From the NCBI GenBank assembly GCA_037042915.1, contig CM073195.1, forward strand, positions 1,984,001 to 2,048,000: a stretch of DNA of 64,000 bases. Reading direction: 5' to 3'. Shown in pieces: positions 6,530 through 64,000 of this stretch (position 1 is its first letter; each line of letters begins with the position of its first letter). Made by a program: the position numbers and the translations under genes. Source of the stretch: Auricularia sp. M13. Taxonomy: Eukaryota > Basidiomycota > Agaricomycetes > Auriculariales > Auriculariaceae. Under the pieces are notes generated by a model. The model worked only from the letters and a program-made list of their open reading frames with translations, did no database searches and was not told the origin of the DNA.

Positions 6530-6840
6530 CCTCACGTTCAATTTCCCATCCCACACGTTGACTTTCCCTTCCTGCACGATCTTTGTAATTACCCTTCTTA
6601 CACGTCTCTACATACCCTTCCTGCACGATCTTTATGCCTTCCTGCACGCGCAGTATGCCTTCCCACACGTCCATTATTACCCTTCCCACACGGTCCAATA
6701 ACCCTTCTGACACGCTCCAATAACCCTTCTAACACGTCCTTATAACCCTTCCTACACGCTGGTATTACCCTTCTTACACGTCCTTATAACCCTTCCTGCA
6801 CGTTCTAGTATCCCTTCCTGCACGCTCCCAGGGAGAACTC
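6530..6840. repeat. Left subterminal motif array
   Basis: About fifteen degenerate copies of cccttcctgcacg (variants cttacacg, cccacacg, ctaacacg), spaced about 20 bp apart. The inverted counterpart lies at the other end. Such arrays are usual transposase-binding regions in large DNA transposons. Confidence 0.85.
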
Positions 6841-13928: not shown

Positions 13929-14494
13929 TGTGATTTGAAGCTCGTTTTCAATGAAATAATTGTACCTTTCTGCATCATAATGTTTAGTAATGATGATCGA
14001 GATTTTCAAGACCCCAAACTCAATTTATCACCGATCCACCGTGGCACTGTGTGTGCCGCACTGTGAGCGGATAAGCGACATCATACCAAATTGGGAAATA
14101 GCATTTGGACTCCGAAACTTTGTAAATATTTTTTGTTAGCATTCTTATGATTTATGAAAAGCTCACCAAGATTTATGGGGGTCTGGTTCTGGTGCTGTAC
14201 AGTTTGACGTCTGACATGTGCGTCCAAAAAGGAAAGAATGCTCAATATCAAATCAAGCACAGCATCCAGGGTTACGGTAAGTATCCCAATATTTTTCTTT
14301 TGGATTATGGGTATTTGTCATCCAGTTTCCAGAATTTTCTGAGCACTCCTTTGATGTGTACTAGAGTTCTCCCTGGGAGCGTGCAGGAAGGGATACTAGA
14401 ACGTGCAGGAAGGGTTATAAGGACGTGTAAGAAGGGTAATACCAGCGTGTAGGAAGGGTTATAAGGACGTGTTAGAAGGGTTATTGGAGCGTGT
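13929..14494. repeat. Inner long terminal inverted repeat, right arm
   Basis: Exact partner of 6710-7275 as far as I could compare. It starts about 135 bp after the transposase stop codon, so the 3' end of the transcript probably lies within or just before this arm. Confidence 0.9.
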
Positions 14495-14630
14495 AGGAAG
14501 GCATACTGCACGTGTAGGAAGGGATAAAGATCGTGCGGGAAGGGATAAAGATCGTGCAGGAAGGGTGACTGGAGACGTGTAAGATGGGTAATCGGCCAGC
14601 GTGTGGGAAGGGAAGATGAACGTGCACAAA
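14380..14630. repeat. Right subterminal motif array
   Basis: Inverted counterpart of the left array: repeated cgtgcaggaaggg and variants (cgtgtaggaaggg, cgtgtaagaaggg). Its outer part is 47 bp shorter than the left one, so repeat copy number has changed between the ends. Confidence 0.85.
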
Positions 14631-29408: not shown

Positions 29409-31175
29409 TTACTGATACAGCACAATCTCTGAGAAATTGGTGTACAGCGCAGCGACCTCAGGCCCGGCGAAGCGTTCCCGGAAGGCAACGCCATGCATGA
29501 CCAGGACCGGCTTTCCCTCGACGGCGCGATACAGCACGTCGCGGAAGAAGCGCAAGATATCTGCCGCAGAGATAGCGGTGCGTGCCGGCCGGGGGTCGAC
29601 AAAGAGCTCGCAGTCTCGGATGGGCGCGCGCGCGTCGAATGCGAGCGTCGCCAGCGCCGGGAAGGCCCACTCTTTGTGCGTCTTTGCGTATAGATCGAAT
29701 ATGTGCACGTGCGGCGCGTCGTGGCGTTTGCCCGCGATGAAGATGGAGAGGGAGCGTAGTGACGGGAGACATTGGTCAGAGAGCGCCTCGGCGTCGCCCA
29801 CGGCGATGCACTCGGACATGCAGAGCGACGTGAACTGCCAGGACGACAGCCACGCCTTCCGCAGCGCGTAGTCGAGCGTCACGACGGTCAGCCGCGACAT
29901 GGTGTGCTGCCTGTCGTCCTGGTCGCGGAGGACGATGGCGTTCTCCGGCCGCGCGCCGCCCGCGCGGAGGAAACAGAGGTGCTTGATGCCCTTGAGCTCC
30001 TTGTTGAGGAAGCCCGCGGTCGACGTCGTCGCCCCGCGCACGTGGACGTCGGCCACGGCGAGGATGTCGAACGCGCGCAGCGTCTGCGCCGCGCCGTCCG
30101 TGCCGAGCTCGGGGACGTTCAGCGCGCGCAGTCCGCGCAGGCCGGCGACGGGGCCGGTGGTCGGCGCGCAGCGCAGCGGGCCGTCCAGACGCACGCTCGC
30201 GAGCCGCGGACACAGCTTGAAAAGGTTGCATGCGTCGTCCGCCGAGAGACCGTGCGGATGGTGCAAAATGTGGAGCGTCGTGACGCTTGCCAATCCCGGG
30301 CAGCTCGGCGGCAGCTGGGCCAGAAAGGTCATCGCCAGTGTGGTGAGCGCCGGAGCCCGGCCTCCGAGAAAGTTACTTCGGAGTTGGATTCGTCTGGCAG
30401 AATAAAGACGCAGGTCCTGGAGATGTGGGGCGCGCATGGAAAGGAGAAGTCGTTCCTGCTCCTCCTCGTAATCACTGTTGTACCTTAGAATGAGCACCTT
30501 CATATGGTGCATATGGTCCGTCAAGATGGTGATCGCGCGTTCTTGCAAGTCCACGGGCATGTCGCGCAGGTCCAAATCGACATGCATAGGCGTGGCGCTG
30601 GTCCGCAGGACGATAGTAGCCAGTTCGTCGAGTTCTCCCATAGATGGAGAGTAAATAGTGGACCACAGCCGCGGCGTTGACAGGGCAAGAGCCCTCCATC
30701 GACGACACACAGAGCTGGCTATAGTCAAGTCAGCGAAGCAGGAGTGAATAATGCCGGTCGTTCGAGGCAAGTAAAGCATGATCATGCGCAAGACATCTGC
30801 GGGGATTCGGTCAACGGCTGGCGACGTGATCACATGAAGCTTGGCTGGCCGCGAGCGTATTATCTTCACAGGTGATCTGACTTCCACAGCCGTTGTGTCG
30901 GATGGTGTCTGGACTTCCAGGCTCCCAGAGCTGGAGGTCGAACTCAACGACGAGCCGAATCGGCGGCGGATATCAGCAATAGCATCCCGCACAGCAGCTT
31001 CAATCTCGCGCAATATTGGCTCAGGATCTGATTCGCTAGAATGTCTGTCTAAGCGCGCTGATAGCTGGTGCAATCGTGCTCACACTGGTGTACGGTCCAG
31101 GACACATTGGAGGGTCACCGCAATGATCGTAGCCAGCCCTTGACGCTCCCTGAAGAGTAAATGAGGCTTGCCCAT
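29409..31175 (-). CDS. F-box protein (554-residue class)
   Basis: F-box proteins recruit targets to SCF ubiquitin ligases. The long exon 29409-31078 lacks an early ATG. An upstream exon 31145-31175 with the ATG at 31175, joined through a 66-bp intron (31079-31144), keeps the frame (FRE-P-RLHQLSAR). A short coiled-coil-like segment (REIEAAVRDAIADIRRRF) is followed by the F-box: IPADVLRMIMLYLPRTTG...ASSVCRRWRALALSTPRLWSTI. The rest has irregular leucine-rich pattern typical of basidiomycete F-box proteins (repeated PxLxxLxL), ending in FSEIVLYQ. It is divergent from the next F-box gene, with about 200 bp between the starts, so they may share a promoter. Sequence similarity between the two is confined to the F-box. 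Confidence 0.85.
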
Positions 31176-31382
31176 TGCGCTGCGGATGTGGACGACCACA
31201 GCCCCTTTGTGGCGGTTGCCAGGGGAATTTGGCCGCGAGGTGGCACGTTCGGGTTTAACGGACAAGGTTCGTTCTCCGTCTTAACCATGCATCCGGATCC
31301 GCGTCGGACCTCGGAGACAAAATTCTTCCTTTCGCGCCACAAACTCGAAGCGCCTGTTTCGACGACTAGGTTGCACTGCACG

Positions 31383-33043
31383 ATGTCTCCAAGCAATAGC
31401 CACTTCTTCCAGACTGAAGGCGCGCAGGCGCTGCAAGATCAGATAGAAGCAGTAGCATTCCACTGGATCAAAGCCTGGCGCAGGTACGTCCAAAGTTTTC
31501 TATGCTCGGAAAATGTCTGACCATGGCCTTCGATAGCCACACATCTGTACCCAGCGAACTTGCCGTATTTCACACTCTTACCAATGCCGCGCTTGTGCGC
31601 GCCGCCGAGAAGTGGAATCACCTGCGGAACTCGCTCCGTGGGCTGCCAGCAGAGGTCCTGGAGCACTGTTGGTCTTTCCTGGACACACCTGATCTCGTAT
31701 GCGCTGCCGGAGTGTGCAAGGCTTGGAAGAACGCCATTTATAACTCGCCAGCGCTGTGGACCGACATTACCTTCTACGGCTCCGCTTCGTGCACCTACGA
31801 GCAACTTCTTGCTCTTCTCGGCCTCTCGAAGGAAAGGCTGATCCGCGTTTCCATTTCAACTGGCGCTGTTTCTGTCATCGAACATGAAAGGATCTCTGAC
31901 GCTCTACGACCTCACGCCCCTCGGCTTTACCAGCTGGAATTCCACGACAGGCGTGCAGAAGGCCGGGCTCATGACTGGCATGGGTCGACAATCCGCTTTT
32001 TCGATTTCGACGCTCCGGAGCTACGATCATTGACATCCAAGAGTTCTAATGTGCAGTTAGCTTTCCAATTTGACACGCGTTGCCCGAAATTGCGGTCCCT
32101 TTCTCTATCTAGCCTTTGGCGTATGTGGTCTTCACCTGCCAACGTGACGTCTTTGGAATTCGAACATGGCTGGAACGGCTTTGAATGGTTGTACCAGACC
32201 TTCCCCCGCCTTGTTCGCCTCAAAGTCTCCTGCCCCAAATCACGTATCGAACTCGATTTGCCGAAAGGGGCTATTCCGGACACTCTACAGCAGGTTATTC
32301 TCCACGGCTTCGACGTATCCTACGAAGATCTCAGCGACTTCGGCTTCACCGCCGTGCGCGAGCTCGAATACCACGGGAAAAATCTGGACCCCACGCTCGA
32401 ACTCTTTGCGCGGCTGGGCGGTATACCTCGCAGGGCCGAAATCACCGCTACACGCCAGACCATCCTCGCCGATGCGCTGGTCGCGAGTGGACAACCTGCA
32501 AGGACCTTCCTCATCTCGTTCCCAATCTACATACCGGGCGATTACACGCGTATTCTCGACCTCGAGTCCGTCAGAGAAAAGATCACGAGCCTCGCAATCT
32601 TTCCCGGCGGACTCTGGTTCCAGCAGGAGCAGCGTTTTATCCTACCCCAGCACGAGTTTCCCGCGCTGCAGACCCTCGAGCTCGTACTCTCAGCCGCCAG
32701 TGGTGAGCCATCGTCGCATGCGCTGCTCAATCTCGATGTCATGCCGCGCGCGGGCTGTCTGCACGCACCGGCCCTCCGCCGCCTCGTCATTTCACGGTCG
32801 ACGGATGAATTGGAAGAAGACTGCCGGTACTACCTCGAGCCCATCCACCCGCTGGCCATCGTGGTGTTCATTGTGCGGCACATGGAGCTTGCACCGGGCA
32901 GGCAGGTCGAGGAACTTGCTCTGGACGGCGATTACGGAGTCCAGCTCTGCGAGATGGACGAATATAATGACTCTCTGGATATCTTGAAAAGCCACGTGGG
33001 GTCGATTTCTTATTGGTTCAAGCAGGCGAGTCCAGTGGATTAG
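31383..33043 (+). CDS. F-box protein
   Basis: Two exons: 31383-31483 and 31537-33043. The 53-bp intron joins W-R to S-HTSVPSELAVF in frame. The N-terminal exon (SPSNSHFFQTEGAQALQDQI) is helical; the F-box follows: LRGLPAEVLEHCWSFLDTPD...AAGVCKAWKNAIYNSPALWTDI. The remaining 400 or so residues show weak leucine-rich patterns (PKLRSLSLSSL, FPRLVRLKVS, FPALQTLELVL) and no other domain. It probably acts as a substrate receptor of an SCF complex; its target is unknown. It forms a head-to-head pair with the F-box gene at 29409-31175. Confidence 0.88.
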
Positions 33044-34535: not shown

Positions 34536-36291
34536 ATGGTTGCCCCGTACACCGGCCATGATCTCGACCTGCTGCATCTCACCGTTGCGCCGTGGATGGT
34601 GGGCTGCTTCCTCGACCTTTTCACGCAGGGCATCCTGGTCTGTCAAGTAAGCAACAGCTCAATTTTATCCTCTCGCTCGACGTCGCCTTTCTCATAATTT
34701 GACTGTACTGCAGTTCCGCAACTACTTCGCATGGTACAAGGACGACAAACCTGCACTCCGCCTGGCAGTTATGGGACTCGTGTTGCTCACGTCCCTGAAA
34801 CTGCTGGATTCATGGTGCGATATGCGCGTCCCTTGCCCTCGAAAACCAACACTGATCGGATTGACGTTTAGCGCAGCGGTGTGGATCGCGCAAGTGGAGT
34901 ACTTCGGCGACCTCGAGGGCGCCGTGCTCCTCAGCTACGTTGCGTGGTGGCAATCTGGCGTCCCTCTCATGGTAAGCGCCATCTCCGCAGCTCCTTGTGC
35001 TTAGCCTCACGCGACTGATGCGCTACCTCGGAGGGCGCGACGATGGACTTCTACGTGCAATGCTACTTCCTCTACCGCCTCTCCGCCATCTCGAAGAGGC
35101 ATTGGATTGTCTACCCCGTCGCCCTGTTCGTCCTCTTCGCTTTCGTGTCGTGCATGATCCTCGTGAGTATTCGTTCATTTCTCTTGAGGTCGTGGTTGCG
35201 AGTCAGACTGCGATCCAGACGGTATACATCAAACGGCAAGATTCGAACAACCTGATACACTGGTGTACGCGCCGCCTGATCCTCCTGCTCTCCGTTCTCG
35301 CTGACTGATATCATTGTACGTTTGCAGTCGCCGCTCACCTTGGTTCCGCGTTCGGTCAGACATACCCTCGTACGGTCATGAAGCGCCGTCCGCTAACTGA
35401 GTTTAGCCGCGGACCTCGTGATGACGCTCTCGACGGCGCATTTCCTCCTGCAGTCGCGCAAAAATTCATTGCGGCAGTACGTACACTGTCGCTCTGACTG
35501 AACTATCGCGGCAGTGGCCAATTGATATTCTCAGGACCCACAGTCTCATCGATATGCTCGTGCGCTTGACATGGCAGAGCGCGGCACCGTCGGCCATCTG
35601 GTGAGTAAAATCATCTGTTAGGCGAAGTAGCGTCTAATGCATCGCAAGCGCTCTCGCAAACTTGATCCTCTCACAAATGGGCGGCGATTTCCTGCTATCT
35701 ACAATCGCACGTGGCTCTCGCAATGCCGATTGCCACTTCACTAATTCGCTGCCGACAGCCTAACATGTTACTCCCCAAACTCTATTGTGAGTAAAGGTTG
35801 AGGACTACGTTGCGACGCTGTTGACGTACTGCATGTGCTGACTACGCTTGTCACTGCAGCAATTGCCATGATGTGGACGATCAACTCGCGTAAGGACGTG
35901 CGGTTGGTTAGCGCGAGCGGCAAGACGAGCAGCAGCGATGGTCTCTCCGCCAACGGGCGGACGGGACGCACCACGCGGGTTAGTCCCAGCGCTTTTCGTA
36001 CCACTCAGGATTTGATATTCTCTCCTTTGCTTCTGCAGGCCAACGATTTGGAACTGGGGCGTCTCGGTGCTACGATCCAAATTCACAAGGACACGCAGAC
36101 AGTACAGAGAGTTGATGTGAGCTCTTCTTGCTGTCGAGCTACGGGCCGTACTAGTGTTGACTCGAGCTCGTGTCACGCTACGATAGTGGGCCGGGGGACA
36201 CGATTCTGCGGACGACGTGAAGCATGCACACGAGTCGGTATACGCTGGTGCAGACCATGGAGACATAGCGCGCGATGATAGCACTCGCTAG
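34536..36291 (+). CDS. DUF6534 family seven-helix membrane protein
   Basis: A multi-pass membrane protein of the large, functionally unassigned basidiomycete family with the DUF6534 C-terminal domain. Exons in order: start in a good context (accATGG) with PWMVGCFLDLFTQGILVCQ; then FRNYFAWYKDDKPALRLAVMG with a second helix; AAVWIAQVEYFGD...; MDFYVQCYFLYRLSAISKRH (the YxxR motif shared by the family); a helix ending FVSCMIL; then ADLVMTLSTAHFLLQSR, SLIDMLVRLTWQSAAPSAIC, and the final IAMMWTINSRKDVR typical of the family end. At least eight introns are needed. One, near 35165-35400, I could not place exactly, and a minor exon there may be wrong. The tail after the last helix is hydrophilic, with the stop near 36291 if the last intron (about 36119-36188) is used. 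Confidence 0.75.
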
Positions 36292-39637: not shown

Positions 39638-41868
39638 TGTGCACGACATGACCAGACGCAGCTCATGTCGGCTTCCGCAGTCAAGATGATCCTGTACGTT
39701 TCCCAAACGCATGATACTGTACGATCTGCTGTATTAGTCTACATTTCCCTGTAATTGTAGTTAAGGTACCTGGTCTATCTGCTTCAAATCAATTTCTCTT
39801 CATGACAAACGAATTGGATCTTGCAACGCGCTTCCTCATTCCCGACAGAAGTTTGGACGGCTCTCAAATTAGGGGTAGTTTCTCAAGGCCTTCTTTCGAC
39901 TGGGGGGTGACTGCGCCTGATGATTAACTGTAGAACCGTGGAGCCTAGAGTCCATCCTGGAGATCTGCTTGCGCGGGGAAGAGAGCCAGAATAGGCGAAA
40001 GGCCGATAACCGTGAGGCGCACATGCGGCTCTCTCGCCAGACCAGCGGTGGGCCGGTTATCGTCCCTACCTGCCAGCCAGAAAATGTGTTTCTTTCGAAC
40101 ACATGATCGACGGCTGTGAAGTCTCAAAAAATGAAAAGGAAGGGTGCTCAGCTGGCAGGATTGCGATTGGAGCGGGCCAGATTCGAAGGGCCGTTAATAA
40201 TCCCAAGGCACGTCGCCGCGGCATACTCAGGGAGACGCCATCTGCTCGGGAGAGAATTTACCATATCCTGTGAGACGGCGACAAAGCCGACTGGCAGCTC
40301 GGCAAGGGACCCTGGATGTGCACTACAATATCTGCAATGCGGATGGGGTGAGGAACTAACGGCATCACAGGGTATATTGACCCTCAATATAAGGAAGAAT
40401 ATTTCTGTACGTTCCTACCCCTCACGCGTATTATATTGGCCCCCAGATAGCCGCGGGCGGCGCAGTGGTCAGTGGCGACTGTGCCTGTCCCTTGCATTTT
40501 CACCCTCTCATCCCGGCCCAATCAGTATATATGCACAGCTAATAGATTCAAAGGGTGATCGCATATGTTTCCGCCAGGAAGCATGCGAAAACGACGGTGC
40601 CTGTTCCTCACGCTTGATGCCTTTCACCCTGCCACCTTACAGCCCGCGCCGGCCCAATATTTTCACACTGCGAGCTGTATGCGCATACGCAATGCGCGGC
40701 TGCCTTGAATTCCACATGGAAACGATGCGGGTCCCGGGACCCCGCAGAATCTGCCCAGGAGCTCCGACCGTCGGTTAGGAATCTGTTGGCGCCCACCATG
40801 ACACCTTCCCCGCATACCTCCGAACAACGCGGAGCGGAACTGGAGGAGAGGAGTAAAAAAGAGAAAAGTCAGGCCACAAAGTATCTGGGATGCTGAGGAG
40901 CTTGGGGCCTACTCCAAATGTTCCGGAAGAAATATTGGGGAGATGCGGAAGTGAACAGGATGAGGTGCCATGAGTAGCGCTGTGGAAACCCGTCGGAGAC
41001 GCTCCTGAGTGAATTCAATGCTAACAGAGTGACGTCTACTGCCAAATGCCAGGCATGCCCACGTCGTGTGCATGCTACGAAAGAAGATATGCGTGGTGGC
41101 AATGCACCTGTCTGCAGCTAGCCACACGTGGCAATGACGTCGCTGGCGGCGGAAACGCTGCTCAATACTAGACGCAGGAAGCGCTGGAGGTCTGGCCTTG
41201 AGGTTCTTTATGAATTGCGCGGGAAATAATGACGCAGAAAGCAATTTTTATTGCAGGTGTTGCAGTGCCGGCGCTTCACCAGGGACAAGCCGACGACGGG
41301 TGCAAAGACAGCGATTCGAAGCGCTGCAGGGGATCTGAAAGGGAGGTTCATGATTCGCGTGAGAAGGAATGACGCAGATTTAGGTTCACTCGAATTCAGT
41401 TGAACCTGAAAGGCCGACGTTGACAGTTGCCATTCCGTTCTCCGGCTTCAGATGAGAAAGGACTCCTCGATTCGGATGACTGTGCACAAAGCAATGATTC
41501 AATTCAAGTAGCTGGACTAAGCAGCGATGGGTAGATAAGACGACACTATGCACGAGACCCCATTGATACAGTAACCGCGACAAAAGAGACATAAGTTTAC
41601 TGCCGTGCTCGAAACGATGCCGTGGAAACCCGGCCAAAGTAGAAGTACATGCGCTGTGGCCAAGGAAAGGTCGAAGGCGGCCACAGGCAAGATGCAAGGT
41701 GGATCGATGATCGGATAGAATGGTAGGAAATCGGGGATAAGGACATGGCGAAAAGTCGGACGAAAGAGAGTCGGGCAAAGGAGAGGAGCTATGTACACTG
41801 CAGCTCGATCAGCATCTGCAAATTAATACCAATGAGAAGGAGTGCGTACCTCGGGGAGGATGCCCCGC
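39638..41868. other. Intergenic, no secure gene
   Basis: 2.2 kb. A plus-strand frame 40116-40778 (220 codons) and a minus-strand frame 41386-41778 (130 codons) are open but show no domain, signal peptide or splice support. Just 3' of the peptide-precursor stop, a donor/acceptor-like pair (gag|gtacgc ... ttgcag|a, 41819-41852 on the minus strand) hints at a 3'-UTR intron, though at 34 bp it would be short. Confidence 0.4.
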
Positions 41869-42742
41869 TCAGTATGGGTGGTAAACGACGGGCTCGGGCG
41901 ACGGGTCGCGCTTGTAGGGCGACAACTGCAGCAGCACGGTGAGACAGAATATCGAGCCATGCAAAGAAATATGCGTACCCTGATGGGCGCACGCTTGAGG
42001 AGCTCAGTTACGGTCTTCTTCAGCTCGCGGTACGGGTGGTACACGACGCGCTTGAAGGGCGAGAGCTGCGGATGCTCGTAAGTATTCAGGAGATAGCAGT
42101 GGATATAGCGAGCGTACCCTGACAGGCTCGGGCTCCGCGTTGCGCTTGTAGGGGTGGTAAACGACAGGGTCACGCTTGTACGGGTGATAAACCACCGGCT
42201 CCGGCTCGGGGGCGGGGTCGCGCTTGTACGGATGGTAGACAACGGGCTCCGGGTCCGCGTTCCGCTTGTAGGGGTGGTAGACGACTGGCTCGGGGTTGGC
42301 CTCGGGCTCAGGGTCGCGCTTGTACGGGTGATAGACGACGGGCTCGGGAGCTGGCTCTGGATCGCGCTTGTAGGGGTGGTAGACCACGGGCTCGGGCGCC
42401 GCCTCCGGGTCACGTTTGTACGGGTGGTAAACGACAGGCTCAGGCGCGGCCTCCGGGTCGCGCTTGTAGGGATGGTAGACGACCGGCTCGGGCTCCGGGT
42501 CGCGCTTGTATGGGTGGTAGACGACACCCTCCGTCTCGGCGCGCTTGTAGGGGTGATATACGACGCCCTCCGTCTCGGCGCGAGCGAGGAGGTCAACGCG
42601 AAGACCAGAGCCGGGCAGAGCGGCAATGGGAGCTGAAAAGCGAGCGTGAGCACCCGTACTAGCGTTCAATGGATGAAGACCGCGTACCGGCGGCGGCGCT
42701 GAGGATGTAGGAGAGGGCGATGGCGGCGGTGGCGGCGAGCAT
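41869..42742 (-). CDS. Secreted Kex2-processed repeat peptide precursor (12 x VVYHPY)
   Basis: Four exons on the minus strand: 42742-42688, 42632-42118, 42065-41979 and 41925-41869. The introns are 55, 52 and 53 bp, all starting gtacgc, and give exactly 238 codons with the stop. Residues 1-18 form a signal peptide (MLAATAAIALSYILSAAA) and 19-36 a short propeptide. Residues 37-182 are ten units of spacer + VVYHPY + KR. The spacers are AETEG (twice), then DPEPEP, DPEAAPEP (twice), DPEPAPEP, DPEPEANPEP, NADPEP, DPAPEPEP and DP. Exons 3 and 4 begin LSPFKR and LSPYKR and carry copies 11 (VVYHPYRELKK) and 12; copy 12 ends at the stop codon with no KR. Known logic: Kex2 cuts after KR, Kex1 trims KR, and Ste13-type aminopeptidase removes X-Pro/X-Ala pairs. 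The predicted main product is VVYHPY. It could be a signal peptide or a RiPP (dikaritin-like) core; no UstY-like DUF3328 gene was seen nearby. Confidence 0.9.
42118..42621. repeat. In-frame tandem peptide-repeat array
   Basis: Ten units of 30-54 bp within exon 2 of the precursor. The 24 bp coding VVYHPYKR are highly conserved in sequence, while the spacers vary in length by multiples of 6 bp after the first two units. The stretch also includes the start of the exon (the propeptide). Expansion by unequal exchange is the likely origin. Confidence 0.85.
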
Positions 42743-45149: not shown

Positions 45150-46245
45150 ATGGTGTTCTACTACCTTTGGCGCCTCGTCAAGTGCGTATTTACTTTCTAA
45201 TTACTGTATGTACTCGTGTAGCTGACGTGCACCTGCTGCGCTTTGTAAACTTCGCTCATCCATCTCGAACGATCGCTTGTGCAGCTCGACGACGGCGTTT
45301 TTATACCCAACATATGCGTCTTACAAGGCCCTTTGCCGCCGGCCTGCCGACGAGGCAGAGCTTGAGCGCTGGCTCATGTACTGGTGCGTAATCAGTGTCT
45401 TGCTGATCTTACTAGTGACTGACTTCATAAATCTGGATACAGGAGCGTCGTGGGAGTAATAGTAGCCGCAGAATACGTCGCAGAATGGCTCGTTAGCTGG
45501 TACGTCTTATCGCCGAATTGATTCGCAAGTGAACAATATACCGACGATCGTCGCTCGCAGGATCCCGTTATACTACCTTATCAAGACACTGTTCCTGCTC
45601 TACCTCGCGCTCCCAAGGGCCCAAGGCGCCGCATTTGTCTACACCACGCAGCTACGCCCGATTCTACAGCAATACGAGCCGCAAATCGACGCGGCGTTCA
45701 GCTCGTTCTACGCGCGCCTGTACGAATGGGCTTCAGACAAACTCAGCGCGCTCTGGCGCACGGTAGCCAATGCGCCGCCGCCCTCGCAGGTCGAGACGGT
45801 CGAACCGCCGACGGTGCAGCACCCCGTGACGATCTTCCAGGGCCTGTGGGCGGCGTATGGGCCAACAGTCGTGGCGGGCGCCGCCACGCTCTTGCGAAAC
45901 GTACAAACACAAGCACAGCAGGCGCAAGCGCAAGAACAGCCGACACCCGAATCACTGACGCCGCCCGCCGCGCCATCGCGCGGACTGTCAGACGACGCGG
46001 CAGCCGTCCTGCGCCGCCGCCGCGAGCTCGAGGCGGAGCTCGCGTCGCTGCGTGTGCCCTCGCCTGGCTCCATCTCGAGCGCGGGCGACACGACACGTTT
46101 CGAGGAGGTCGACCCGGAGGACGTCAGCGGCGACGAGAGCATTGGCACGCCCGTCCGCCCGAGCGACACGCGCCGGAGCAGCTGGTGGAGTTGGAGCGGG
46201 TCCAGCGCGACTAGCGGCGGCTATGCCAAGGTCAAGACCGACTGA
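45150..46245 (+). CDS. REEP/Yop1/HVA22 (TB2/DP1) family ER-shaping protein
   Basis: ER membrane-curvature proteins of this family have hairpin membrane segments. Four exons: the start MVFYYLWRLV joins N-S-T-T-A-FLYPTYASYKAL (the YASYKA motif of the family); then RPADEAELERWLMYW, joined to SVVGVIVAAEYVAEWLVSW, then IPLYYLIKTLFLLYLALPRAQGA and YTTQLRPIL. The order W-x-x-Y-W ... SW-x-P-Y-Y ... P...GA...Y is diagnostic. After the domain, about 170 residues form a disordered Pro/Gln/Ala tail, with a short RRRRELEAELASLR helix and a Ser/Trp-rich end (SSWWSWSGSS). The long tail is more than the minimal Yop1 length but common among larger fungal paralogues. Stop at 46243-46245. Confidence 0.88.
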
Positions 46246-46945: not shown

Positions 46946-48344
46946 TCACGGGCTATCGGCAGATGCAGACCCATCTGAATCGGTATCGGCGGATGCAGCC
47001 TCATCGGCATTTACAGCGATTCTACAGCCTCGGTGGACCTGGATCAAGCTCATCAGACGCGAGATGGAGAGAACGTTTGCCGTTTCGTCGCCCCCAGCCG
47101 AGCACAAGACGATCTTGTTCAAATTCTTCATATCAACCTTCACTGGAGTGGATTCCCTGCCTTGCAACTGGGAAGACTTGTCAGTATCCTTCGGCGCTGC
47201 ATTCGTCTCTGCCGCATCGCCGCCGTCGTCCAGAATGATGGTGGGCCAGACTTCCAAGCGCAGGTCGAGGGACCGCAGTAGCGGCATCGACGAGAGAAAG
47301 CTTGCGACGCGGCGCGCAGAGAGATGCAGCTTGAGGGGTGGATAAGAAGAATCAGTGCACGAAAAACCGTCCACCTCGAGTCTTTCCAAGACAGGGAATG
47401 CAACGCGCAGCTGAAACTGTGGTGGTACCGGGGAGGTCTCGCCCATAATGCTGTGAAGAGTATCAGGAAGCGCAAGTGGTTCATCAACTCCAAGCTCCCA
47501 GTCATCGTGCGCCGTGATGACAAGCGTGCGCAGTGCGGTCATCGGAGGGAGGAACGCAAAAAGGTCAAGCCAGTCGCTACACAGCACCGTGAGCATGAGA
47601 GACGCGATCCTGTGCGCAGCGGCAGAGAGCGGGTGTAGGATGTTGATAAAATCGCTGGACACGTCGTTGCCGAGTGCCGCCGCGAGCTGAGTTCTCGTGA
47701 TTGGTTGCTCACTCTCAAAGATTTTGTTGATTCGCTGTCGCACGCTATCGGCGTCAGGCGTGTCACAGTGAGATGTCAGCCGGAAGTCGATGACAACACG
47801 AGCTTTCCAAGGGAAATCCAGTAGACGAGACAGAAGATGCAGGTTAGAATTAGTCTTTAGAAATATGTCGTCGGAGATATTGTAGTAGCAGTGATAATGC
47901 TCTACTTCGAGGTGCTTGGTGTTTCCCATGTCAACTGAACCTAGGGAGTGAAAGCAGACTTTGGGCCACGGGTTAGACATGCTGAGCGCCTCGGAACGCC
48001 AGAGCCGACAGATCTGAGACGCAACCAGGCGATCGTCGAGCTTGTTCAGGAAGAGAATGATGATGCTAACGGCTTCCGGCGAGAGACGAGCGGCCCCGCT
48101 TACACGCGCGTTGTGAGTCGCGCGCAGGCTGGCCATTGCCAGCTGTGCAGCCGAGATAAGACGCGTCATGGATTCTGCCATTGTGGCTAGCGCCCGCTCC
48201 TTATCGTCTTGCGCACTGCAACCTTGTCGATGAGTGCAACGTCCATGGCGAAGCGGCCTTTACGCACATTGTATCGCTCTTGACGATGCGCTCTATGGTA
48301 GTTGCGATTGTGTCGACCTCGGCGCGCGAGTCGGTCTCCGACAT
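46946..48344 (-). CDS. F-box-like protein, inverted-pair member 1
   Basis: Two exons. The first starts at 48344 (SETDSRAEVDTIATTIERIV) and ends at an ATG codon split by a gtgcgt intron of about 70 bp. The second reads AQDDKERALATMAESMTRLI, joined in frame, and runs to the stop at 46946. An F-box-like region (ARLSPEAVSIIILFLNKLDD...ASQICRLWRSEAL) is followed by a leucine-rich body (SLMLTVLCSDWLDLFAFLPP, ALRTLVITAHDD, FPVLERLEVDGF, LLRSLDLRLEVW) and an acidic Asp/Ser/Ala end. It aligns along its whole length with the gene at 49533-50896, including the exon break, and the two are transcribed away from each other. Probably an SCF adaptor; target unknown. Confidence 0.8.
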
Positions 48345-49532
48345 GATTGTGGCAATGTTGTGGATGAAGGTCAAGGTTGCTCGACCAAACATGCCATAAC
48401 TTCGGTGGAAAACTTCTAGCCACAGCCTCTGGCATCGTCTCGAAGTAAGTACGGGAAAATGTCGGTATGAGTTCATGGGACAACTGTTGTATCGCGCATC
48501 CTTAATTACCGTCTCACAAGACGAGAAACCGAATTTATTGGCCTTGAATCCTTTCCTTATTCGGCTACGGAGGCCTTCGAGAGCCCCCCTAGAGCCCCAC
48601 TTCGAAAATATCAATGCAATGATATCGAGGAAAATCATAAAGGGATAGCGGCGCTATAGAGCGAGGGTATACTCTGAGCTGTTCTGATATCTGATGATGC
48701 TGCGCGACGACAAGAAGTATTGCTGGTCGCTCTGCTCTCTGCGCACAAGCGATCCTTTGCCCGTCGCACTGCCGTTCCACCTTTTTGCCACAGTCTTTCT
48801 GTGACTTGAGACAACTTTCCTTTCATTCCTCAGTGTTCTCTGGCCGCTCAGAGCTGTATCCGTGGCTATGATGGCAATCCTTGTGTAGCTTTGACCTTTG
48901 CTTTATTTAGGAGTGAAATAGCAAGGTGGACATCCAGAGCCACTCATCTCATAAGACGCAGTTCATGTCATTTCTCGCCGCATTTTGAACCTCAATCAGC
49001 AGATTCGGGGGGATTGGAAGCGGTCAGGACGAGAGTTAGCATCAAATTTAATCACAACGGCGACAGCCTGATGATAGAGCTTCACTAGTCAACTGATAAT
49101 ACTGACATCGTCCTCGGAAAATAGCCATTTCCTCATTGGCCATGCTAGTGCCAATGTATAGCGAGTGCTCCGCGGCGAGCTGTCAGAGGCGGTGGCGATG
49201 CTGCTTCCATCCCAAAGTGGAAGGCGCATAGAGCATCGGTGCCCGCAATGACACTCGCCATGAGTCTGGCGCGTCAATAACGACTTCTAAGGTAATACAA
49301 ACGGAGTTATCCGCCTTCAACGTTTTGAGAAAAGAAGCGGTGGCAAATTTACTGATGAGATCATGGTTGCTCGAGACTGAAGGGTAACTTGTACCAGAAC
49401 AGCAGCCTGGAGCGTTGTATTGAGCGAGAAGTCAGCGCACGGACGAATTCATGCTCGGGGATCAGCATGGTATCCCGAAGTTATGACGTGTTTGGTTAGT
49501 ATCCTTAGCCTGCACCCCCGCCGTTGCCAACG
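48345..49532. other. Divergent intergenic region of the F-box-like pair
   Basis: 1.19 kb between the two divergent starts. No gene or clear inverted repeat was seen at the junction, although both genes must derive from one inverted duplication. Short minus-strand frames near 48589-48826 are not supported. Confidence 0.5.
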
Positions 49533-50896
49533 ATGTCCAATAAGATATTGTCCATCGATGTCGACGATATCTCCAAGACCATAGACCACATCGTTAAGGA
49601 TGATACCATGTGCGTATATGCATAACGCTTCGACCGCGCCTCACTCATCAGTGCGCTCGTAGTGCAGATGGCGATAAGGAGCGCGCACTCGACACCATGG
49701 TCGAAGTCTTGGCCCGTCTACACTCAGCCGCTCAGCTGGGAAAGGCCAGTCTTCGAGCAAGCCAGAATGCGCAAGCGAGCGGTGCCGCTCGCCTTTCACC
49801 AGAGGCTATCAGCTTCATCCTTCTCGCACTAGACGAACTTGGCGAGCGCGTGATAGCATCTCATGTCTGCCGCCTCTGGCGCTCCGTCGCGCAAGATATT
49901 CCAAATCCGTGGCCTCAGATTCAACTTCACTCCCTCGGCCATATCGAACGTGGGACCGGGTGGCTCAAGCACGCTGAAGCCGAAAGCGACCACTGCGAGT
50001 ACGACGTTGGGCTATTCGCTAGGACCGAGTCGAATCTCCGCGAGCTGGACGGCCTACTAGCCCTGTCGTGGAAAGCTCCCGTGCACGTCGACTACGAGCT
50101 GACGTCCCACTGCGACGATCCCCTCGAATACTCAGAGCCCAGCGCGCGTGAGCGCATCAATAAGGCCCTCAAAGCCGGGCAGCCACTCACCAGGACGAGG
50201 CTCACGGCCGCGCTCGATATCGACTTGGACGTATCGAGCGGTTTCCTCGACATCCTCCATCCACTTGCCGTCGGGGCAAACAGGATCACCTCTCTCACGC
50301 TCACGGTGCTGTGCAGCAACTGGCTCGTCCTGCTCCCGTGCCTCCCTCCCATGACCGCGCTGCGCACGCTCATCATCGCCGCGCATGAGGAAGCTGGAGA
50401 CGCCGCAAAACCAATTACACTTCCTCGTACTATTTACGAGATCCTGGGAAAGAATTCAGCGCCGCCCTTGCACGTTGCCTTCCCGGTCTTAGAGACCCTG
50501 AAGGTGGATGGAATTTCTTTCACGGATTCTCACGAATCAGAGCTGCGTATCCCCGCTGGCCGAGTCGCAAGCTTTCTATCATCGATACCACTACTTCGGT
50601 GCCTCGAGTTGCGATCGTCAGCATGGCCGGTGATTATCTCAGAGGACGACAGCGACGACAATTCCAGGACCGGATCGGACACAGACTCGAACAAGGAATC
50701 CTCGTCGGACAAGGAATTCTCGGGCGTCAAGGTCGAACTGAAGAATTTGAACAAAATCGTTCTGCAGTCTACCGGGGCCGGATGGGCTCAACTTGAAAAA
50801 GACAACCGCCGCTCTATCTCACGACTGATGGACATGCTTCCGGTCAACCCAGGCCTCAACGTCGATGTCGATGCTGATGGGGCAGGCAGCCCATGA
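49533..50896 (+). CDS. F-box-like protein, inverted-pair member 2
   Basis: Paralogue of the gene at 46946-48344. The start at 49533 (SNKILSIDVDDISKTIDHIVK) leads to a gtgcgt intron of about 50 bp that splits the same position, then ADGDKERALDTMVEVLARL. The F-box-like segment is ARLSPEAISFILLALDELGE...ASHVCRLWRSVAQ. The body matches the partner in blocks: SLTLTVLCSNWLVLLPCLPP, ALRTLIIAAHEE, FPVLETLKVDGI, and VKVELKNLNKIVL against VKVDMKNLNKIVL. A Ser/Asp-rich stretch precedes the last block and the end is DADGAGSP. Both copies look intact, so both are probably functional. Confidence 0.82.
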
Positions 50897-62159: not shown

Positions 62160-64000
62160 ATGCCACCGAGGCGTACACCTGCAGACGATAATGCGGACGC
62201 TTCCAGAGCAAAGGGCATCGACTGGGAAGCTCTATTTCCCAGGAGTGAGAGCACTTCGGCAGTCTACAAAGCCTGTGCTATACTCTCTCTGATGACATGG
62301 CTCAACTTCTCGCCTCGCCAATTCCTCGACTGGTTCTTCTCCACAGAACACGCAGACTCGAAGAAGAAGGCAGCACAGTGCCTCAGCCCAAAAGGCGGGA
62401 TCTCTCCGCTGTCTATCTGGCTAGCAAACATTGCGGAGCGCTTTACCGGGGGTCTGGCAGCAGTAGAAGCCTCCATCGATCCCTTTGTCAAGGCAATTCT
62501 TCTACGCGAAAGTACTGCGGAAATCCAGTGCAGGGAGCTCAGCATTTGCCCAGGTGATATCAATCTTGCCGATCTTCTGGCTAGGGTTGGGACTGGCGCG
62601 GAGAGTGTGTCGTCTCGGATCCAGGAACTCATGCCACACTCAGTCTCGTGGTTGCTGCATGCCACGTCTGCGGATAACTCCTATCGAGCCAAACTAAAGC
62701 GCACAAGCGCTGCTACTTCAGAGGATGATACTTGGAACCCTGAGGCGCCCGAAGGTGCTGCGTTGGACGGCGCTGACGTCGAAATGGACGCCGAAGGTCC
62801 TGAATTCAGCGACGAAGGTCTCACTTGGCATAGCGAATACCCAGGTTTCAGTCGCAATCCGTTCATTGTACGTATCCCGTTCTATCTCACCCACTGTGCT
62901 CATGAACTATAAGGCCGTCATCTTTGTGCTCTCCGTCCTGCTCTTCGTCCGAAATCGTTCGACGAATGCATTTCCTTTTCTTCTTGGTGTTCAGATGATT
63001 ACGCATGGTGCCAGCACACGTATCATGACGACGTTCAGCTGCCTTGGGGTTGTAGTCTCTGCTCGCACGCTTGGTCGCTTTCGCGAGAGGATCTCACTCG
63101 ACGCCGTCTCCCGAGCAATTGACGCTATCGCTGCCAACCCGCTCTGGCTCTGGATAATCGACAACATCAATCTCTTCATACGGCGGGCAGCTCAGCGAAT
63201 CAACAAGCTTAACTACATGATTAACGCCACAAATGCCGCACTGATCTTTCTCCCTTCGGGCGTTCCCCCTGCGGCACTTGACTACAAGAAGTTTGCTTCA
63301 ATGCGGGGAAAACGGGCAGACGCTGTTCCAGAGGCCATAAGGCCTTCACCTGAGGATGATTCCCATATGATCAGGGCATACGAGGCTCTTGTCGAACAGT
63401 TTCTCATTGCCTACTGTCCAGGAGCAGACAAATGGGCCGACCGTACCGACATGAAGTTGCATGCAGCAGCTGCTATGCCGTCTGTGTCACCGCTGGCACC
63501 AGAGGTTACAAAGACCTTCCCTGTTGGTGTACTCGATGCAAACGAGGGTTCATACAAAGGACTCATCAAGGCGATCGAGCTCCTGCGGCAGCGCCTCCGT
63601 ATGACACCATCCCAATGGGCGGCAGACCTTCGCATTGGCGCCGGCGATTTTCTCACCTCTCGTAACATTCGCGGTGCCCAGTACATTCGACAGTATGATC
63701 ACAGCCCTGCCGAGCGACTCGAGACGATTTTGCCGCAGTCCCAGCTTTTCCATTTCGCCATGCGGGCTGCAGATGTCATTCATTCGGAGCATCTTGGTGA
63801 CTCTGTTAACGACCCGGGGTCACTTTCACGACAGAAAGACCAGCTGAGACGCAGTTACGACGTCAACAAGGTCGACTACGCTAATGCTAAGGCTCTCATC
63901 AGGCATTCGCTGATTGCGCGTATCCTGGACGGCGTCATGGTCGACAAGGGCTTTGGAACCTGGGCTGCATTAAGCAAGTGGAGACCTACGTACGCCGACG
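62160..64000 (+). CDS. DUF6589 family protein (3' end beyond window)
   Basis: Exon 1 runs 62160-62867, a 46-bp intron (62868-62913) restores frame (NPFI-AVIFVLSVLLFVRN), and exon 2 stays open to the window edge, so the protein is partial (over 590 residues). The N-terminal part is helical (AVYKACAILSLMTWLNFSP...QFLDWFF), then a Glu/Asp-rich linker. The DUF6589 region has LWLWIIDNINLFIRRAAQRINK and HMIRAYEALVEQFLIAYCPG, followed by KTFPVGVLDANEGSYKGLIKAIE. This family is greatly expanded in Agaricomycetes and unassigned. Its Asp-Asn motif (DNIN) and copy number suggest a transposase-like origin, but that is inference. The start codon is the first ATG in the frame and has a plausible Pro/Arg-rich leader. 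Confidence 0.82.

Follow-up and report, generated by a model that had tools for sequence, protein, structure and literature searches.

A gene of Auricularia sp. M13 with alpha-factor architecture, probably a KEX2-processed repeat protein releasing the linear hexapeptide VVYHPY

KEX2-processed repeat proteins (KEPs) are reported from 1345 of 1461 fungal strains, with a mean of 5.30 per basidiomycete strain (PMC7329392). KEPs with the STE13 signature have already been reported for Basidiomycota, together with the idea of non-mating hormones; they combine a secreted leader, dibasic sites and XA/XP repeats before a repeated core, and no mating role is expected of them (PMC6339444). The signature refers to alpha-factor trimming, in which the Ste13 dipeptidyl aminopeptidase recognises XA or XP dipeptides behind the site cut by Kex2 (PMC6339444). 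The KEPs described from Coprinopsis, Lentinula and Pleurotus include Pleurotus precursors with XP/XA ladders, interpreted as trimmed by STE13 and processed to linear peptides; such peptides were detected, and knockouts of six KEP genes in Coprinopsis cinerea caused no visible phenotype (PMC9769878), so that KEP architecture does not imply a signalling role. The same layout of Kex2, Kex1 and Ste13 sites is found in the alpha-factor precursors of ascomycetes, and secreted Kex2 repeats also constitute the precursors of the dikaritins (ustiloxin, asperipin-2a, phomopsin).

The window, i.e. the whole stretch of 64,000 nucleotides analysed from Auricularia sp. M13, possesses a four-exon gene on the minus strand (42742..41869), which encodes a 237-residue protein after in-silico removal of three GT-AG introns. 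This splicing reproduces the three introns fitting to the base that the first-pass annotation had proposed. The features of the gene are as follows:

42688..42742, minus strand: exon 1, with the start codon and a hydrophobic, signal-peptide-like N-terminus (MLAATAAIALSYILSAAA); a phase-1 intron follows directly
42633..42687, minus strand: intron 1, 55 nt, phase 1, GTACGC...TTTCAG, with a branch-like CTCAC
42118..42632, minus strand: exon 2, with a short pro-region, 10 VVYHPY-KR units and X-P/X-A spacer ladders; at its 3' end begins a variant core that is split by intron 2 (VR/LSPF)
42148..42564, minus strand: VVYHPY copies 1-10, each followed by KR
42066..42117, minus strand: intron 2, 52 nt, phase 0
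41979..42065, minus strand: exon 3, 87 nt, with LSPFKR, copy 11 of VVYHPY followed by RELKKTVTELLKR, and APIR
41926..41978, minus strand: intron 3, 53 nt, phase 0
41869..41925, minus strand: exon 4, LSPYKR-DPSPEP-VVYHPY-stop (copy 12)

Introns 1-3 contain one CTNAY branch-site-like motif apiece, located 17-18 nt from the 3' end. The frame of copy 11 differs from that of the other VVYHPY copies, and splicing is therefore needed to join it. Exon 3, with 87 nt and phase 0 on both sides, could be skipped with the frame kept; its layout suggests a duplicated intron-bearing unit. Introns 2 and 3 cut both variant cores at the same place (VR/LSPF and IR/LSPY). Residues 2-18 of the precursor reach a mean hydropathy of 1.84, a value that reflects hydropathy only, and an Ala-rich, cleavage-like stretch before Pro is visible by eye near the N-terminus. 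Among the 70 ORFs listed at window positions above 28,000, the unspliced repeat ORF ranks first by mean codon score, with 0.20 per codon against 0.19 for the runner-up, and it was outside the codon training set.

The spliced protein contains 12 exact copies of VVYHPY, with KR behind each of copies 1-10, RE behind copy 11 and the stop codon behind copy 12, just as had been counted before (twelve copies, ten with KR behind, the last at the stop). KEPs are defined by at least three near-identical repeats between dibasic Kex2 sites, and the window gene has 12 cores, 10 of them with KR. When the protein was shuffled 5,000 times, no hexamer exceeded two copies. The protein also has the minor cores VRLSPF and IRLSPY, neither of them with Tyr3. 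A tandem array is called by TRF at 42167-42525, inside the region of copies 1-10. At codon level the 12 copies show pS = 0.63 with pN = 0, so that selection seems to act on the peptide, and a young DNA repeat is not what the array represents. The gene is real and intact, and appears to be selected. Ending in VVYHPY, without Cys, the precursor lacks the C-terminal CaaX of the farnesylated pheromones of basidiomycetes.

The spacers between the cores carry a further pattern, which the first-pass annotation does not mention. Thirteen units stand behind a KR, one of them without a spacer, one with AETEG and 11 with pure dipeptide ladders such as DP-EP-EP or NA-DP-EP, whose dipeptides all end in Pro or Ala (DP, EP, EA, AP, NA, SP, NP). 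Thus 11 of the 12 non-empty post-KR spacers have an even length with A or P at every second position; shuffling within spacers left 1.99 ladder spacers on average, and none of 20,000 shuffles reached 11. Exceptions are the first core, which has no KR before it and is preceded by AETEG, a sequence that forms no ladder, the second core, preceded likewise, and copy 11, with neither a KR behind nor a ladder ahead. By their sequence, these spacers are the putative Ste13/DPAP trimming signature of alpha-factor precursors. The Kex2-processed, alpha-factor-style precursor proposed by the first-pass annotation is accordingly well supported, and better than the repeat and its KR sites had indicated, because the spacers are Ste13-type X-P/X-A ladders.

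We consider it probable that the window gene is a KEP of alpha-factor architecture that releases linear VVYHPY. The precursor would enter the ER, Kex2 would cut behind each KR in the Golgi, and a putative Kex1-type carboxypeptidase would take off the KR. A Ste13-type DPAP would then strip DP, EP, EA, AP or NA dipeptides and halt at V-V, leaving VVYHPY (computed [M+H]+ 777.393). The predicted products past the first KR are nine VVYHPY, single AETEGVVYHPY, VRLSPF and IRLSPY, and one long form; the computed [M+H]+ of VRLSPF is 718.425 and that of IRLSPY 748.435. More tentatively, VVYHPY may leave the cell as a linear peptide that serves as an extracellular signal or in interactions with other organisms, and it would not be an alpha-type mating pheromone. 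Judged from precursor anatomy and the machinery of the genome, the predicted release of VVYHPY is well supported; that the peptide may act as a signal is plausible.

As to the machinery, the genome possesses two kexin-type genes on contig C4 (P_proprotein matches above the cut-off), whose frames, read by eye, show catalytic motifs and, towards the C-terminus, a membrane segment. A profile search of the genome detected one DPPIV_N gene, in three stretches on C8; a membrane segment at its N-terminus is recognisable by eye, as is the serine motif GWSYGGY, and with this gene the host possesses a putative Ste13-type membrane DPAP. STE3 matches five stretches on C7, read as two genes, and a STE2 search, which had no positive control, gave 0 matches in the same genome.

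The window's own genome (52.1 Mb in 14 contigs, with the window gene on C3) was searched with the repeat, and the search found one other such gene, a paralogue at C5:1632180-1633143 that encodes 287 aa once spliced. Its 14 cores are of the type [I/L/V/M]RYSAY, with 5 IRYSAY, 4 LRYSAY, 1 VRYSAY and 4 with GIMRYSAY; the computed [M+H]+ of IRYSAY or LRYSAY is 772.399. They differ in amino acids only at position 1 (pS 0.57, pN 0.07). The paralogue possesses the same ladders as the window gene, its last core likewise ends at the stop, and in both genes a phase-1 first intron splits an Ala codon directly before P-I-A-A. The KEP2 "spacer" TVVKYTKFIKREPEPEPEP is a pattern artefact and, behind its own KR, is a ladder too. 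The minor cores VRLSPF and IRLSPY have R2 and S4 in common with the paralogue cores and Pro5 with VVYHPY, and on these shared residues they look like intermediates between VVYHPY and xRYSAY.

With the paralogue repeats as query and E up to 10, the genome returned six matches beyond the two genes, of which the best (E 0.034) is a VSDW-type KEP and the other five are weaker, with E 0.39-3.04; a shortened window-gene query added one further weak match on C8 (E 6.2). The VSDW-type gene at C5:1087410-1088009 is a third KEP; it has a frame of 200 aa that comprises ten VSDWKR units, and fits the XSDW motif published for basidiomycetes (PMC6339444). Together with the STE3 matches and the lack of a STE2 match (no positive control), this gene would fit a basidiomycete host. 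A strict DNA pattern with Tyr before KR occurs at 17 sites against 0 in the control; the window gene accounts for 5 of them and the paralogue for 11, and one stands isolated on C1, with no repeat visible by eye in the 1.1 kb read there. A wider pattern of KR plus ladder occurs at 58 sites, 17 of them in the two precursor genes, against 30 in the reversed control, and thus enumerates KEPs poorly.

Pfam yielded nothing above the cut-off for either the window precursor or the paralogue, and listed no match to MF_alpha or MF_alpha_N at E up to 1. Below threshold, the paralogue resembles Trypan_PARP, a family with EP repeats (E 0.00056; 20.3 bits, where the cut-off is 100), which was taken as an effect of composition. 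PDB sequence matches of the window precursor were weak (best E 0.074), mostly to MAP kinase 1, and were taken as chance.

Earlier, the repeat had been assigned to no described family. This holds for the letters of the core, as VVYHPY had no match in the literature searched, but not for the kind of precursor, since KEPs with Ste13 ladders are described (PMC7329392, PMC6339444, PMC9769878); with ladder KEPs already published for Basidiomycota, the gene is not a new kind of precursor. HPY is absent from the main texts of three KEP papers, among them PMC6339444 and PMC7329392, and YSAY from that of PMC6339444; the search covered main texts, and the figures (including Fig. 7) and supplements may list the gene. 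Among the matches listed for basidiomycete Kex2/Ste13 repeat peptides, titles and the starts of abstracts gave no further report of a VVYHPY core; a search for RYSAY was uninformative, with nothing relevant by title among the matches listed. The ladder-bearing cores given in PMC9769878 end in W (AADW, PSW), whereas those of the window gene and its paralogue end in Y or F. A known kind of KEP with a core not found in print within these searches, the VVYHPY precursor perhaps represents a small new family.

Possible, though rather doubtful, is a wider reading in which both precursors would form the ligand side of an undescribed non-mating system of basidiomycetes. The hexapeptide hormones VVYHPY and [I/L/V]RYSAY would then derive from one ancestor via VRLSPF/IRLSPY-like intermediates, be matured by the alpha-factor proteases and act on non-STE2 receptors. 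Basidiomycetes do retain the proteases that mature alpha-factor, as well as precursors of its shape, although receptors of the STE2 type are reported in ascomycetes only (PMC12842992). The two cores are clean, related and very short, with exact predicted masses, which makes direct detection, gene removal and receptor screening feasible.

In a dikaritin-like RiPP, Kex2 would likewise free the cores, and Tyr3 and Tyr6 would be joined into a macrocycle by a UstYa-type oxidase whose gene lies elsewhere in the genome. Both tyrosines are kept in 12 of 12 VVYHPY and 14 of 14 xRYSAY cores, and asperipin-2a offers the parallel of a hexapeptide core with Tyr3 and Tyr6 (FYYTGY) and ether links from tyrosines (PMC6514808). 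UstYa stretches number at least 16 in the same genome, and among 76 KEPs with homology to putative basidiomycete pheromones, 17 have a DUF3328 gene nearby (PMC7329392). The UstYa stretches found are located on C8, C4 and C2, however, and none was found on C3 or C5, the contigs of the two precursors, which argues against a clustered, cyclised dikaritin; the mean distance between a KEP gene and its DUF3328 gene is given as 3.09 genes (PMC7329392). In addition, the minor cores have no Tyr3 to link, and ladder spacers are present here, while epichloecyclins and toxic cyclic peptides are reported to arise from precursors that lack the STE13 signature (PMC6339444). A cyclised product is thus unlikely. 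Of the two outcomes proposed in the first-pass annotation, a new peptide signal or a RiPP core, it is the RiPP core that is weakened by the location of the UstYa stretches found on contigs other than C3 and C5.

A structural or surface peptide that lines the hyphal wall, rather than a signal, would also account for a protein that looks secreted and is built of repeats. The peptides of Rep1 from Ustilago maydis, the precedent for such a role, are much longer than the six-residue cores considered here. The window cores are exactly conserved and accompanied by trimming ladders, and Rep1, a basidiomycete protein that is KEX2-processed into peptides attaching to hyphae, is described without the STE13 signature (PMC6339444). 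A role of this type is very unlikely for VVYHPY. That the locus encodes no processed precursor at all, and is a repetitive gene, secreted or dead, which has survived by chance, is highly improbable in view of pN = 0 at pS = 0.63 over 12 copies, the register of the ladders and the design shared with the paralogue. It is scarcely credible that a basidiomycete has here a true mating pheromone of the alpha type: leader, dibasic sites, XA/XP ladders and repeated core do copy the architecture of the alpha-factor precursor, but the core is another one, MF_alpha finds no Pfam match, the genome has STE3-type matches on C7, read as two genes, and no STE2 match (no positive control), and STE2 receptors are reported in Ascomycota only (PMC12842992).

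Linear VVYHPY from a KEP remains the preferred reading of the window gene, whose surroundings in the window contain the following features:

6658..6828 and 14380..14565: two arrays of 22-bp units, ~8 kb apart, which look like mutual reverse complements
29412..33040 and 46949..50893: flanking region, with two F-box-like genes and an outward-facing pair of look-alike long ORFs (by eye; no Pfam match)
about 34536..36240, plus strand: multi-exon gene with multiple membrane segments, DUF6534 (E 6e-11 after hand splicing)
45466..46242, plus strand: TB2/DP1/HVA22 family gene, on the upstream side of the precursor gene
62698..63999, plus strand: DUF6589 protein (E 8.4e-43), the frame of which runs to the window end

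The DUF6534 gene lies ~6 kb from the precursor gene and is a possible receptor-like neighbour. A DUF6534 search of the genome returned 10 stretches, none of them on C5, and missed this gene. Just past the stop of both precursor genes, an intron-like GT...AG is visible by eye, at 41849..41798 in the window and at L007:5146-5202 for the paralogue. The two 22-bp arrays are perhaps the subterminal repeats of a mobile element.
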